Assembly (NCBI RefSeq): GCF_900112175.1
Contig: NZ_FOYT01000001.1
Coordinates: 1,240,001-1,304,000 of the forward strand
Direction of reading: 5' to 3'
DNA length: 64,000 nucleotides
Source: Halogeometricum rufum
GTDB taxonomy: Archaea > Halobacteriota > Halobacteria > Halobacteriales > Haloferacaceae
Shown: piece after piece, positions 21,096 through 26,162 of the stretch
Position numbering within the stretch: the stretch's first letter is position 1
Layout: each line of letters begins with the position of its first letter
The notes under the pieces: model-generated
The model's database searches: none
What the model was told of the DNA's origin: nothing
Seen by the model: only the letters and a program-made list of their open reading frames with translations
Translations under genes and position numbers: made by a program

Positions 21096-21344
21096 TCAGG
21101 AGTCCCGGTTCGCTCTCGTTTCTGACCGCCGCCGTTCCTCGCGGAGGCGTTCGTCCCACTCGTCGAACAGGCCGTAGTCCCGCATCGTCGTCATCCCGGC
21201 GAGTGCCGCGCGGAGTTTGATGCCGACGAGCGGGATGTCGGCCACGCTGACGACGATGTCGGCGTCGAGGACGGCACCCTCTTCGAGGAGGACGTCCACG
21301 AGGTCGACGACCGCGTCGTCGTCCGTTGGCGGGTCAGGCTCCAT
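21096..21344 (-). CDS. gvpM: Gas vesicle protein GvpM
   Basis: An 82-residue relative of the major gas vesicle protein GvpA. The core AVVDLVDVLLEEGAVLDADI.. (residues 11-30) and VGIKLRAALAGMTTM match GvpA/J/M, but the helix after the core is charged (WDERLREERRRSE). GvpM and GvpJ are minor, assembly-initiating components in halobacteria. It is the last gene of the minus-strand operon and overlaps gvpL by 11 bp. M rather than J is assigned from its short length and its position after gvpL, as in other haloarchaeal clusters. Confidence 0.9.
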   Translation of the reverse strand: MEPDPPTDDDAVVDLVDVLLEEGAVLDADIVVSVADIPLVGIKLRAALAGMTTMRDYGLFDEWDERLREERRRSETRANRDS

Positions 21345-22254
21345 CGTGGGAGTCCGGAGTCGTCGCGTGAGACGGTTCGTCGGACTCGTCGTCCCCGGTC
21401 GGGGCGCACGCGTCCGGGGCGAACGTGTACGGCGGCCACGGACCCGTGTACCGGACGGACGCGCCGTCCTCGTCGGCTATCGTGTCGAGGAAGTCGCCGA
21501 CGGCGTCGCGTTCGTCCTCGTCCGCGAGGACGGCGAAGCGCGCCGTCGGGGCCGACGACGACTCGGTCAGCGGCGTCTGCGGCGCGTCGCCGAGTTCCTC
21601 CGCCTGGTCGGTCGTCCGTTCGAGTTCCGCGGCGAGTTCGGCCGTTCGCCGTCGCCGGCGCTCCGCGGCGAGTTTCGACACCCGGCGCTCGTACTGTTTC
21701 TCGAGGAGGAACGCGGTGCCGTCGCTGGCGTCGGACAGCCGTTCGTTCAGGTCGGCGAGTTCCTCGTCCTCGTCGGCGAGTGCCTCCGCGAGGGCGTCGC
21801 GGTCCCACTCGACTTCGACGCGGTACTCCCACCGGCCGGACAGGTCGGCGAGCGCTTCGGTGAGAGCGTCCGCGTTCGCCGAGAGCCACGTCCGAATCGT
21901 CTCGTCGTCGCCGCGGACGACGGTGTCGAACCGGAACGGCACGGGCGTTCCGAACGCCTCACCGGCCGCTTCGACGGCCGCCTGATGGTCGTACAGCCAC
22001 TCGCGCACCTCTCCGGGCGCGTCGGACTCGTACGGTTCGGCTCGGTCGTGGACGACGGCGGAGAGCGACTCGACCGAGACGACGGAGAGGTCGGCACCGG
22101 CCACGCCGTCGGCGTCGAAGGCCGCCGCCGCGTCGTCGTCGCGGGGGACGACGCAGTAGACGTAGCGACCGGTGTCGTCGCCGCTGATGGTCTCGTCGTC
22201 GGTGATGGTGTCGTCGCCGTCGTCTGTCCGCCGGCGCTCTCCGGCGTCGTTCAT
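21334..22254 (-). CDS. gvpL: Gas vesicle protein GvpL (GvpF/L family)
   Basis: A 306-residue GvpF/GvpL-family protein. Recognisable blocks are GRYVYCVVP near residue 29, [33 protein letters not shown], and the C-terminal [13 protein letters not shown], which matches the TGPWAPYNF ending of GvpF in the same cluster. A central coiled-coil-like Arg/Glu region (175-215) and acidic termini are halophilic features. GvpL is an essential accessory protein that contacts several other Gvp proteins in halobacteria. It overlaps gvpK by 4 bp and gvpM by 11 bp, implying translational coupling. Confidence 0.92.
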
Positions 22255-22580
22255 CGCTGCTCACCTCGCTCGTCCACGGCCGTCTCTCCCCGTTCGTCCC
22301 GCTCGACCTGCCGAATCGCGTCGGTGACGAGCGAATCGAGGTCGCCGCGGAGTTGGTCCACCTGCTCGTCCACCTCTTGGTCCTCTTTCAGACGTTCCAG
22401 GTCCGCCTCGAGGGCGGCGAGGTGGCTCCCGAGCCGTTCGACCTCCTCGTCGGAGAGTCGCCCGGACTCCATCCGCCTGACGGCCTCGCGTTCGAGCGCG
22501 TCGACCAGTATCTCGACGACGGCGACGACGACGGCGGTGAGACCGTTCGCGCCGCTCTCGTCCACCTCGACGGTCGTCAT
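22251..22580 (-). CDS. gvpK: Gas vesicle protein GvpK
   Basis: A 109-residue GvpK-family protein: [28 protein letters not shown] (residues 13-40) is the conserved helix, followed by [17 protein letters not shown]. It is essential for gas vesicle formation in halobacteria and cytosolic; its exact role is unknown. The gene overlaps gvpJ and gvpL by 4 bp on each side. The acidic C-terminal extension is typical of haloarchaeal versions. Confidence 0.93.
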
Positions 22581-23074
22581 CCGTCTCCCTCCTCGTCCTG
22601 CGCCCGTGGCGTCGATTTCTCGCTCGATTGGGCCGACTCGGACTCGTCCCCAGAGGACTCGGCTGCGTCGTCGTCCTTCGACGCGTCACCGTCCTCCGAG
22701 GCGTCGTCGTTCCCGCCGGTCGTCCCGTCGCTCTCGCCGGGTGCTTCCTCGCTCCCGTCGGACTCTTCGTCGACTTCGGAGTAGTCGCCGGTGGGCGACA
22801 GTTCCGGGTTCGCCGCCGGCGTCACCTGCCGGTTCCGACGGCGTTCGCTCGCCGCCTCGACGGCCTCCATGTCGGTGCCGGACGGGAACTCCAGCCCGTA
22901 CTGGGACGCCGTCTCGAACGACGCGATGGCCGCCCGGAGCTTGATGCCCAGCAACTCCGTCTCGCCGACGGAGACGACGATGTCGGCGTTGATGACGACC
23001 CCCTTGTCGAGGAGCAGTTCGACCACGTCGGCCAGGCTGTCGGAGTCCCGCCCCGGTTGGACCGGGTCAGGCAT
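22577..23074 (-). CDS. gvpJ: Gas vesicle protein GvpJ with long acidic tail
   Basis: A 165-residue GvpA/J/M-family protein. The conserved core spans about residues 12-62 ([20 protein letters not shown].. and [21 protein letters not shown]). From about residue 85 onward it is a low-complexity tail of Asp, Glu and Ser with almost no hydrophobics; halobacterial GvpJ is nearer 100-115 residues. The ATG at 23074 overlaps the upstream gene's stop; a GTG six bases earlier is possible. The tail probably adds solubility or a binding surface for partners during nucleation. Confidence 0.9.
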
Positions 23075-23903
23075 CGTCACCCTCGTACTCGTCGAACCGG
23101 CTCCCGTAGACGCGCGTTCGGTTCGGCGCGGAGGAGTACTTCGTCTCCCGTGGGACCGTCGAGTACTTCACGTCGACGGAACTCCGCGTCTCCGTCGAGG
23201 CCAGCGTCGAGGCGGCCGTCGGGTTCCGCGAACTCGGCTGCTCGGCCGATTCGGTGCGCCGTTCGTTCTCCTCGCGCATGCGAGCGAGTTGGTGGTGGAC
23301 TTCGATCAGTCCCCGTCGGAACTGTTCGACGCTGTCTGCGAGTTGGGACTGAATCGCCGTTTCGTAGGCTTGGTCGGGTACGTTCACGTCGTCGTCACCT
23401 GTATCGAGCGTCTGCTCCGCGCCGAAGTCGACGTCGAAGTCGTCGTCCTCCTCGTCGTCGTCGGTCAGGTCCGAGACGAGGCCGTCGTCGTCTCCGTCCC
23501 CGTCGTCGTCGCCGACGTCGTCCACCGCGTCTTCGAGTTCGCGCTTGTTGCGCCACGCGTCGCGAACGTCGACGGACCCCCAGAGTTCGGCGAGGTCGAC
23601 GACGGCGAGGAGTTTCCGGAGTCGAATCGCCTCGTCGGGATCGCCGTTTACGACCGCTTCGGGGAGGTTCTCCTCGACGACGAGTTCGTCCAACTCGTCT
23701 TCGTCTATCGCCGCGGGGAGTTCCGAGAGGTCCATCGTCTCCAGCAGTTCTATCGCCTCCTCGGCCACGGTCTGGATGTCGGCTATCAGTTCCTCCAGGT
23801 CGGTGTCCGGGTCGTCCCCGGCGAGGTAGTCGAGGGCGTCCTCGCTCGCCCGGAGCGAATCCACGACCAGCGCCGAGACGGCGTCGTCGGAGTCGTCGCT
23901 CAT
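23067..23903 (-). CDS. Gas-vesicle-cluster protein of unknown family, 278 aa
   Basis: A 278-residue protein between gvpG and gvpJ, where haloarchaea normally carry gvpH and gvpI. It does not look like the Hsp20-type GvpH. Residues 1-127 are acidic and helical, with repeated hydrophobic-acidic blocks (LAGDDPDTDLEELIADI; MDLSELPAAIDEDELDEL; VVDLAELWGSVDV). Residues 129-160 are nearly all Asp/Glu/Gly. Residues 178-215 form a helix (LADSVEQFRRGLIEVHHQL), and the end is a Ser/Thr/Arg/Tyr tail (VPRETKYSSAPNRTRVYGSRF). It overlaps both neighbours by 4-8 bp, so it is part of the operon. It may be a fusion or replacement of gvpH/gvpI; I do not assign a letter. Confidence 0.75.
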   Translation of the reverse strand: MSDDSDDAVSALVVDSLRASEDALDYLAGDDPDTDLEELIADIQTVAEEAIELLETMDLSELPAAIDEDELDELVVEENLPEAVVNGDPDEAIRLRKLLAVVDLAELWGSVDVRDAWRNKRELEDAVDDVGDDDGDGDDDGLVSDLTDDDEEDDDFDVDFGAEQTLDTGDDDVNVPDQAYETAIQSQLADSVEQFRRGLIEVHHQLARMREENERRTESAEQPSSRNPTAASTLASTETRSSVDVKYSTVPRETKYSSAPNRTRVYGSRFDEYEGDDA

Positions 23904-24151
23904 CGCTGCACGACCACCTTGTCGCTGAGGCGTTCGCGGGCGCGTTCGGCCGCCTCCAGTTCGGCTTCGAGTTCGGCCCGCCGACGTTCGTACTCCTCGT
24001 CGGACAGTTCGCCCAGTTCGTACAGCAGTTGGTTCTCCTTGATGTCGCTCCGGACGGATTCGGGGTCGTACATCTCTTGGACGGCCAGCGAGTGCAGGAC
24101 GTCCACGACGTTTCGGAACGGCCAGAGGAAGATATCGTCGAGGAGGAACAT
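23900..24151 (-). CDS. gvpG: Gas vesicle protein GvpG
   Basis: An 83-residue GvpG-family protein: FLLDDIFLWPFRNVVDVLHSL (residues 2-22, quoted in parts FLLDDIFLWPF and VVDVLHSLA) is the family signature. An amphipathic coiled-coil helix follows (LSDEEYERRRAELEAELEAA). GvpG is an essential minor assembly protein. The start at 24151 has an upstream AGGAGG-like sequence inside the end of gvpF, and the gvpF stop lies 2 bp before it. It overlaps the following unknown gene by 4 bp. Confidence 0.92.
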   Translation of the reverse strand: MFLLDDIFLWPFRNVVDVLHSLAVQEMYDPESVRSDIKENQLLYELGELSDEEYERRRAELEAELEAAERARERLSDKVVVQR

Positions 24152-24153
24152 CG

Positions 24154-24777
24154 TCACTGGGCCTCTATCTCGATGTCGACGAAGTTGTACGGCGCCCACG
24201 GACCCGTGTAGTCGACCGTCACGTCGGGATACTGGTCTTCGAGGTCGGCGACGGCGTCGCCGAACGCGTCCCGTTCGTCGGCGTCGACGAGGTACGACCG
24301 GTTGAACAGGAGGCGGTCGGAGTAGAGGTCGTTCTCCGCCTCGCTCTCGCTCACCGCGGTCAGTTGGCCGGAGACGTCGTCAGCGACGGTCTCTCGGTCG
24401 AGCGTCGAGTCCTCGTCGACGACGAGTTTCACACCCAGTTCGACGGAGTCGTCGACGTCCATGAGCGCTTTGCGGAAGGCGCGCCGGCCGCCGCGCATGA
24501 CGCTCTTCAGCGTCCGTGCGCTCTTGAACGTCATCCCGAACTGCATCGGGACGACCGCCCGGCCGTCGCCCTCGGTCATCACCGCTCTGAGCACCTCGTC
24601 GTGTGCCCGCGAGTTCTCGTCCGTCTGCTCGACGTCCATGTCGTCGATCGGGGTCACGACCGCCGAGAGCGACCGGTACGTCACGGTCTCGACCGGACTC
24701 TCACCCTCGACGCCCTCCATCTCCAACTCGAAGTCCTCCGCGTCGACGACACCGTACACGTACAACTGAGTGCTCAT
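24154..24777 (-). CDS. gvpF: Gas vesicle protein GvpF
   Basis: A 207-residue GvpF/L-family protein, first gene of the minus-strand operon. It opens MSTQLYVYGVV and has the family blocks HDEVLRAVMTEGDGRAVVPMQFG, here at about residues 58-80, and a C-terminal TGPWAPYNFVDI. GvpF binds GvpA monomers in halobacteria and probably keeps them from aggregating until assembly. The ATG at 24777 is chosen over an upstream in-frame ATG at 24837, because the longer form would cover the divergent promoter region. Confidence 0.93.
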   Translation of the reverse strand: MSTQLYVYGVVDAEDFELEMEGVEGESPVETVTYRSLSAVVTPIDDMDVEQTDENSRAHDEVLRAVMTEGDGRAVVPMQFGMTFKSARTLKSVMRGGRRAFRKALMDVDDSVELGVKLVVDEDSTLDRETVADDVSGQLTAVSESEAENDLYSDRLLFNRSYLVDADERDAFGDAVADLEDQYPDVTVDYTGPWAPYNFVDIEIEAQ

Positions 24778-24926
24778 AATGAGGGTTGACGGACGATTCG
24801 ACCGAGATAATTGTATAGCTTGTGGCTCTTCGAACAAACTTCCGAACGTATCGAATCGACTGAAATTAATTTTTTATTTCTCGATGGCCGAATGATTAAA
24901 TAACGTCACCCAACGACTCGGTTACG
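24778..24926. promoter_or_regulatory. Divergent gas vesicle promoter region
   Basis: This 149-bp A/T-rich gap lies between gvpF (minus) and gvpA (plus). Toward gvpA, GATTAAATAA at about 24891-24900 is a good TATA box 27-36 nt before the ATG, predicting a nearly leaderless transcript. Toward gvpF, CTATACAATTATC read on the minus strand (about 24809-24821) is the best TATA. I see no clear match to the TGAAACGG-type GvpE activator element, and no gvpE or gvpD gene is in the window. Confidence 0.55.
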
Positions 24927-25205
24927 ATGCCAGCAGATAGTCCGGATGGCTCTAGTTTGGCGGACGTACTGGACAGAATCCTCGACAAGGGTATCGTCAT
25001 CGACATTTGGGCGCGCGTGTCGGTGGTCGGTATCGAGATACTGACCGTCGAGGCACGAATCGTGGCCGCCTCTGTCGACACCTTCCTGACCTACGCGTCA
25101 GAGATGGCGAAGATAGAGAAGGCCAGTCAGGGGGACCTCGAAGATCTCAAGGAGATCGAGATCGGGACCGCGAACCCCCGCCTGACCGAGCAGAACCCCT
25201 CGTAA
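24927..25205 (+). CDS. gvpA: Major gas vesicle structural protein GvpA
   Basis: A 92-residue GvpA, the hydrophobic protein that forms the ribbed shell of the gas vesicle. The highly conserved core is intact: [39 protein letters not shown] and [12 protein letters not shown]. The C-terminal tail (about residues 68-92) is polar and differs from the Halobacterium form, where the tail is Ala/Glu/Pro-rich. It lies 13 bp before gvpO on the same strand. No gvpC follows, so the shell probably lacks the usual outer strengthening protein unless gvpC is elsewhere. Confidence 0.97.
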
Positions 25206-25218
25206 CTGAGGTCACACC

Positions 25219-25803
25219 GTGTCCGATCAGTGTAGGGCCGTCACGGACGACGGCGAGCGATGTTCGCGGCCGGCCGAGGAGGACGGCTTCTGTCACCAGC
25301 ACGGTCCCGAAGACGAGACGGTGGACGAAGCAGAGGCCGACGCCGACGCCGAGGCCGAGTCGACTGCAGACGAGGAAGACGAATCGGAGGGCACCACGAT
25401 GGACGAGACCGACGATACGCAAACCGACGGCGACGACGAGCAGCGAGAACGGGACGAAGACGACCAGTCAGCGGAGGCGGAGGAGCGACCGGCGGACGCG
25501 GACGCCCGAGAGAGCGAGTCGGACGACGACGGCGACGACAAAGCAGACATCGTGGCCGTCCGCAACACGGTACAGCAGGACGTCCCCGCCCTCATCGACC
25601 GCGAACTGGACGGCGTCACGAGCGTCGTCCGGGACGAGGACGGCTGGATGGCGACGGTCGAGATGGTCGAGCGACACTCCGTCCCCGACACGCAGGACAT
25701 CCTCGGCCACTACGAGGTGTCGCTGAACGGGGCCGCCGACATCGACGGCTACCGGCGCATCGAGACGTATCGGCGCGCCGAGGGCCGGCCGTACGAGGGG
25801 TAA
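25219..25803 (+). CDS. gvpO: GvpO with N-terminal zinc-knuckle-like domain
   Basis: A 194-residue protein in three parts. Residues 5-28 hold Cys5, Cys15, Cys25 and His28 (CRAVTDDGERCSRP, then GFCHQH), the pattern of a small Cys3His zinc motif. Residues 29-115 are an acidic linker. Residues 116-194 are the GvpO domain (VPALIDRELDGVTSVV, DGWMATVEMVERHSVPDT, YEVSLNGAADIDGYRRIETY). GvpO is essential for gas vesicle formation in halobacteria. The start is GTG; the gene follows gvpA by 13 bp. The N-terminal zinc-like domain is not part of the usual GvpO. Confidence 0.9.
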   Translation: MSDQCRAVTDDGERCSRPAEEDGFCHQHGPEDETVDEAEADADAEAESTADEEDESEGTTMDETDDTQTDGDDEQRERDEDDQSAEAEERPADADARESESDDDGDDKADIVAVRNTVQQDVPALIDRELDGVTSVVRDEDGWMATVEMVERHSVPDTQDILGHYEVSLNGAADIDGYRRIETYRRAEGRPYEG

Positions 25804-25895: not shown

Positions 25896-26162
25896 ATGAC
25901 GCTCACGCTCGTCCCGTTGTTCCCCGGCGTCCCCGGCGGACCCGAACTGTTCATCGTCCTCCTCATCGTCGTCCTCCTGTTCGGCGCGAACAAACTGCCC
26001 CAACTGGCCCGTTCGAGCGGACAGGCGATGGGCGAGTTCCGCCGCGGCCGCGAGGAGATAGAGTCCGAACTCCGGAGCGTCGCGACCGGCGAATCAGGCG
26101 ACGAGACGGCGATGGAACCCGACGGAGAGACCGACGACGTCGACGGGAGGCCGGCGGCCTGA
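25896..26162 (+). CDS. tatA: Sec-independent translocase protein TatA
   Basis: An 88-residue TatA-family protein. One membrane helix (about residues 16-31, ELFIVLLIVVLLFGANKLP) is followed by the FG..KLP hinge and an amphipathic helix (GQAMGEFRRGREEIESELR), then an acidic tail. It forms the pore part of the Tat system, which halophiles use for most secreted proteins, including the Tat lipoproteins in this window. tatC genes are not here. The ATG at 25896 places the family's N-terminus correctly. It may be monocistronic. Confidence 0.93.
   Translation: MTLTLVPLFPGVPGGPELFIVLLIVVLLFGANKLPQLARSSGQAMGEFRRGREEIESELRSVATGESGDETAMEPDGETDDVDGRPAA

Follow-up and report, generated by a model that had tools for sequence, protein, structure and literature searches.

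The window, a 64,000-nucleotide stretch of the Halogeometricum rufum genome (contig NZ_FOYT01000001.1), contains a gas vesicle (gvp) gene cluster. gvpA and gvpO lie on the plus strand and are accompanied by gvpF-G-(278-aa ORF)-J-K-L-M on the minus strand (Table 1). No Pfam or NCBIfam family matched the 278-aa ORF above cut-off. Downstream of gvpO is a short ORF (25897-26162, plus strand) with what we take to be a TatA-like hydrophobic start. A search of the genome returned a single GvpO match and a single DUF5763 match, both of them in the gvpO ORF. The closest gvp loci were those of H. limi and H. pallidum, in a comparison confined to the 80 most window-like of 167 loci; the frequencies given below do not draw on this selection.

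Table 1 Features of the window gvp cluster (first 13 rows) and of GvpC and GvpJ variants in other loci (prefix L, coordinates within the locus).
Feature	Position	Strand	Basis or remark
gvpM	21096..21344	-	PF00741; named by place and order in cluster
gvpL	21334..22254	-	PF06386, E 5.1e-59
gvpK	22251..22580	-	PF05121
gvpJ, without C-terminal DUF5763	22577..23080	-	PF00741; NF046090, E 5.9e-40
278-aa ORF between gvpG and gvpJ	23067..23903	-	present in 22/25 mapped clusters, window included
gvpG	23900..24154	-	PF05120; NF045779
gvpF	24154..24789	-	PF06386, E 9.7e-45
gvpA, 92 aa, directly upstream of gvpO	24927..25205	+	PF00741; NF046092 (halo_gas_GvpA), E 1.9e-38
SD-like GAGGTCA, 4 nt 5' of gvpO GTG	25208..25214	+	sequence
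gvpO, 194 aa, GTG start	25219..25803	+	GvpO core PF05800, E 3.5e-22
N-terminal C3H zinc-finger-like module, residues 3-38	25225..25332	+	DUF5763/NF045806; ligands Cys5, Cys15, Cys25, His28
Acidic linker, residues 39-104	25333..25530	+	52% D+E; predicted mostly disordered
GvpO core, residues 99-188 (helix and four strands)	25513..25782	+	PF05800
GvpC with HHH_5 replacing the Ros-type finger	L225:446-2080	+	Pfam HHH_5
GvpC with other helical end	L231:6558-7613	-	missed by PF05465
GvpC with other helical end	L232:3675-4931	+	missed by PF05465
GvpJ with C-terminal DUF5763	L210:4014-4538	-	NF045806, 72.7 bits (G198)
GvpJ with C-terminal DUF5763	L211:4105-4839	-	
GvpJ with C-terminal DUF5763	L161:2526-3332	-	

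The gvpO product combines an N-terminal C3H module, an acidic linker and a core that matched PF05800 (GvpO) with 78.6 bits (cut-off 25; residues 99-188). Sequence and Pfam analysis confirmed what the initial annotation had described, namely the ORF and its coordinates, the Cys5-x9-Cys15-x9-Cys25-x2-His28 pattern, the acidic linker and the normal GvpO core. Block pLDDT values in the AlphaFold model were 82-91 for residues 1-30, 44-48 for residues 41-100 and 96-97 for residues 111-150; the protein is thus predicted as two confident folds with a low-confidence arm between them. In ten pairs drawn from five Halogeometricum genomes, pN/pS was 0.00-0.25 for the motif, 0.17-0.54 for the GvpO core and 0.48-0.82 for the linker. 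The C3H motif is therefore the most constrained part of the window GvpO, with strong purifying selection acting on it at the protein level.

In-frame GTG and ATG codons occur 3' of the motif, from which a working protein could begin, leaving the N-terminal part untranslated or a neutral leftover. We give this reading almost no credence. The SD-like GAGGTCA, the distance of only 13 bases between the gvpA stop and the GTG, and the selection on the motif together support translation from the GTG at 25219 and thus oppose a start downstream of the Cys motif. For comparison, the SD sequence of haloarchaeal gvp genes is given as GGAGGUCA with a spacing of 5-13 nt in PMC4390858. Also against a downstream start, the GTG is conserved in all five Halogeometricum gvpO genes, and the four ligands are retained in 96 of 96 GvpO ORFs carrying the module (hereafter zf-GvpO).

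Residues 3-38 matched PF19067 (DUF5763) with an E-value of 8.6e-15 (54.4 bits, cut-off 26.3). This family comprises C-x9-C-x9-C-x2-H domains of unknown function, a pattern shared by the window protein, and also holds proteins other than GvpO. Residues 3-37 matched NCBIfam NF045806 (GvpO_arch_Nterm; 'gas vesicle protein GvpO, halophile-type') at E 2.2e-21 (75.2 bits, cut-off 52), covering all 35 model positions with no notable difference. The two matches indicate that the motif is not a chance arrangement, and a GvpO N-terminal domain is thus already catalogued in a curated NCBI model named for it. C5, C15, C25 and H28 were invariant in 42 aligned sequences, and their exact spacing was kept in 95 of the 96 zf-GvpO ORFs, the odd one (L208) having one extra residue before the third Cys. 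The compact C3H domain that had been claimed from the sequence is hence real, and we infer from its conserved pattern that the four ligands bind zinc.

Further relatives of the module were less clear. The signs of a kinship with the MCM10/zf-primase CCCH zinc finger were suggestive yet non-significant: the window N-terminus matched zf-primase below threshold (E 0.05, 13.8 bits, cut-off 28.8), Foldseek gave weak alignments (TMq 0.56-0.58, E 2.7-7.3) of DUF5763 with the zinc finger of MCM10, and the latter was absent from the Z >= 2 rows of a second aligner, VIA-align. Unlike GvpC C-termini, the window N-terminus had no match to ROS_MUCR (PF05443) at E <= 1. A structure search of the PDB with the GvpO core gave no match with E under 0.36.

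The frequency of the module depended strongly on the sample. The family group to which the window belongs was represented by 170 genomes; 44 of them had GvpO (52 matches), and 13 of the 52 ORFs carried the motif. Class-wide, 391 genomes were sampled: 161 had GvpO and 132 had DUF5763, and the two occurred in one frame in 118 of the 161 GvpO genomes (107 of 150, plus 11 of 11 that were separately fetched). The view that the fusion is rare, which the family sample alone would suggest, was therefore abandoned. The initial annotation had held that ordinary GvpO lacks the motif; comparison of N-termini across the class showed instead that the motif is common to most haloarchaeal GvpO. Haloarchaeal GvpO usually begins with the DUF5763 module, and the window protein is an ordinary halophile-type GvpO, which corrects the earlier view of it as unusual.

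The plain GvpO of the H. salinarum type shares the core with the window protein but has only a short acidic N-terminus, and its clusters contain gvpC and partly gvpD. The model protein thus represents a module-less minority; most haloarchaeal GvpO proteins have a conserved domain in addition. According to PMC9372576, H. salinarum needs GvpO to form gas vesicles, and the protein is listed there as one of unknown function. Our literature search, in which little subscription material was covered, found no experiments on any GvpO N-terminus.

Several gvp genes were missing from the window genome. GvpC was not found with PF05465; the best GvpN candidate reached 28.4 bits (cut-off 266.8) and the best GvpD candidate 23.7 bits, against 150-344 for true GvpD. 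The best GvpE candidate (25.3 bits) lay ~359 kb from gvpO, far outside the gvp cluster; the GvpE search covered this genome only. The earlier statement that the cluster lacks gvpD and gvpE therefore holds genome-wide, but the use made of it, as a pointer to a regulatory GvpO, is a weak link. GvpD was indeed absent from 74 of 74 zf-GvpO genomes tested (13 + 61), and the 13 genomes that have it (9 of 170, scoring >150 bits, and 4 of 68) include none with zf-GvpO. It was, however, also absent from plain-GvpO genomes (such as G070, G098, G147 and G153) and from clusters in which GvpO carries other modules (helix-hairpin-helix, HhH, or helical). That gvpD and gvpE are missing does not speak for GvpO as a regulator, and the analysis found nothing for or against a part in transcription. 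A coupling of the module to gvpN loss was likewise rejected: GvpN was found in 2 of 13 zf-GvpO genomes of the family sample but in 82 of 118 class-wide, and is missing in the other 36, the window's included.

GvpO proteins without DUF5763 often carry another small module in the same N-terminal slot, either HhH or a segment that reads as helical. Two of the HhH segments were tested and matched HHH_5 at E 1.4e-13 and 1e-6; the unnamed segment, ~54 aa long with the consensus DPxEHTVDEL, is called helical from its sequence. Among 157 distinct GvpO cores, 83 carried the zinc-finger-like module, 24 the unnamed helical one, 6 HhH and 44 none. The counts are based on these distinct cores; the wider set of 193 ORFs counts some genomes twice and includes some 3-kb loci, where GvpC absence is only partly assessed. 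On the best tree of the 157 cores, module class changed at least 15 times, where shuffles averaged 64.4. Resolution of this tree, built on a core of ~90 residues, is poor: 71 of 153 inner branches are open, and the starred branches require no more than 1-2 changes for each module class.

These replacements bear on the possibility that the C3H module has no docking partner and serves instead to stabilise or tune GvpO, as a structural cap or as a sensor of metal or redox state. Invariant ligands beside a drifting linker would suit such a role. HhH and helical modules without metal ligands, however, take the place of C3H in other GvpO proteins, which is hard to square with a need to sense metal. 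In the AlphaFold model, moreover, module and core lie apart, with 66 low-confidence residues between them. We regard this explanation as very unlikely.

Small modules were also found on two other gas vesicle proteins. Haloarchaeal GvpC likewise ends its acidic stretch in a small metal-binding-type module, although here it is the other end of another protein, the finger is C-x2-C-x10-H-x3-H of Ros/MucR type, and no homology to DUF5763 was seen. The Ros/MucR-type finger was present in 28 of 33 GvpC matches; three tested C-termini matched Pfam ROS_MUCR at E 4e-5, 1.6e-5 and 1.2e-7, two of them reaching the cut-off. The remaining GvpC ends were HhH (2 of 33, both G153), another helical segment (2 of 33) and a module-less fragment (1 of 33). 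The two helical-ended GvpC proteins, from genomes G174 and G322, had escaped PF05465. Our labels 'SAP-like' and 'HeH-like' were given by looking at the sequence and have no Pfam support, and a homology between the helical module of GvpO and the SAP-like GvpC end was rejected (hhalign probability 0.9%). On GvpJ, a C-terminal DUF5763 was found in three clusters (G198, G287 and a Natrialbaceae MAG). NF045806, although named for GvpO, is therefore no strict GvpO marker, and automatic naming could mislabel the GvpJ of G198. As far as our literature search reached, the exchange of small modules among GvpO, GvpC and GvpJ is undescribed.

The modules of GvpO and GvpC were distributed in a complementary manner. 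GvpC was encoded in the locus of none of the 113 module-bearing GvpO cores and of 23 of the 44 plain ones. Consistently, in a test of 63 genomes, all 12 classical ones had a PF05465 match within the gvp cluster and none of the 49 whose GvpO bears a module did; the GvpC-negative, module-less genomes in this table were G322, which has a divergent GvpC, and Halohasta G045. The pattern is that the module is on GvpO where gvpC is absent, and that GvpO is plain where GvpC is present with a module at its C-terminus. Fisher's test gave p 3e-11 with kinship ignored, so that the value is not usable as a probability; on the tree of 157 cores there are only about 2 independent contrasts, which leaves no power. 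Indeed, GvpC-bearing clusters are nearly one lineage, and lineage alone could therefore explain the complementarity. The one-module pattern is broken above all by the Halohasta type: in Halohasta and a related MAG (L255, which is G045, L183, L186 and L190), GvpO has a long acidic N-terminus with no recognised module, and there is no GvpC. Genome G019 also has neither GvpC nor a recognised GvpO module.

By analogy with GvpC, we propose that the window's halophile-type GvpO uses its C3H module for docking, with the acidic linker as a flexible arm, a reading for which we see about an even chance. The GvpO core would do what is indispensable for assembly where the GvpA shell grows, and the module would dock from its arm and hold a partner near the vesicle. 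In this respect the module would correspond, in cis, to the one at the C-terminus of GvpC, which would act in trans; clusters without gvpC would have the module on GvpO, mostly as DUF5763 and sometimes as HhH or the unnamed helical domain. The proposal draws on the identity and frequency of the domain, on the tighter constraint on the motif than on the core, on the low-confidence arm between two confident folds, on the DUF5763 of GvpJ, on the exchange and complementarity of the modules and on the GvpC end itself: a C-terminal fragment of H. salinarum GvpC with a zinc-finger motif binds GvpN and GvpO, as stated in PMC9372576, and the motif is repeated in a table of PMC9501494. The partner would most likely be another Gvp protein involved in assembly, GvpN if the genome has it and GvpF-M if not, with nucleic acid as the main alternative. 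GvpN cannot be the general partner, since 36 of the 118 zf-GvpO genomes lack it. If the domain is an in-cis equivalent of the GvpC finger, experimenters would know which contact to look for.

Several observations argue against docking. The complementarity comes down to little more than a single evolutionary event, Halohasta and G019 manage with neither GvpC nor a recognised module, second GvpO copies are module-less, and no relationship is detectable between the helical modules of GvpO and those of GvpC. Moreover, species of Halopiger, Haladaptatus, Natrinema, Natrialba and Natronobacterium whose clusters lack gvpC and gvpDE are reported as vesicle-free in PMC4390858.

A module that binds nucleic acid would either tether the vesicle or assembly complex to the nucleoid or let GvpO regulate gvp transcripts, the role suggested in the initial annotation. 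HHH_5 (on GvpO and one GvpC) and ROS_MUCR (on GvpC) are DNA-binding-type families, and the swapping of unrelated folds would fit a common non-protein ligand. The resemblance of DUF5763 to zf-primase and MCM10 points in the same direction but is non-significant, the MCM10 match staying below Z 2 in the second aligner, and residues 1-38 are net acidic, with 12 D/E against 5 K/R/H. gvpO is termed a potential transcription regulator in PMC5496347; the absence of GvpD, however, does not track the module, and the sole relevant experiment, again from PMC9372576, shows protein binding by the GvpC module. The literature that our search reached on archaeal gas vesicles and the nucleoid contained no tethering study. 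Nucleic-acid binding as the role of the module thus appears rather doubtful to us, and a regulatory GvpO is not favoured.

The distribution could also be read more broadly than the docking proposal for the window protein. Each haloarchaeal cluster would then have one exchangeable docking module, placed on an acidic arm of GvpC or else of GvpO (rarely also of GvpJ), with unrelated folds (C3H DUF5763, Ros-type finger, HhH, unnamed helical) filling the slot. Several of these folds are of DNA-binding type, and the module may therefore anchor vesicles or assembly sites to the nucleoid or a plasmid. We consider this general scheme unlikely; if the anchoring were true, gas vesicles would have a mechanism of positioning or inheritance, of which no study was found in the literature covered.

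Some clusters contain a second, module-less GvpO, which lies beside zf-GvpO in Haladaptatus and in tandem in Halocatena-like clusters and occurs as an extra copy in other genera. These copies were seen in L121, L126, L129, L130, L156 and L159 (GvpO on the minus strand), in L184, L187, L188 and L243, in L035 and L043-L045, and in L025 and L041. DUF5763 is itself not confined to gas vesicle proteins: the 142 matches in the class sample comprised 118 in GvpO, 2 in GvpJ and 22 in other ORFs. In L212 (4023-4794, plus strand) and L213 (minus strand), it begins a ~255-aa protein with a glycine-rich centre that is apparently unrelated to gas vesicles.
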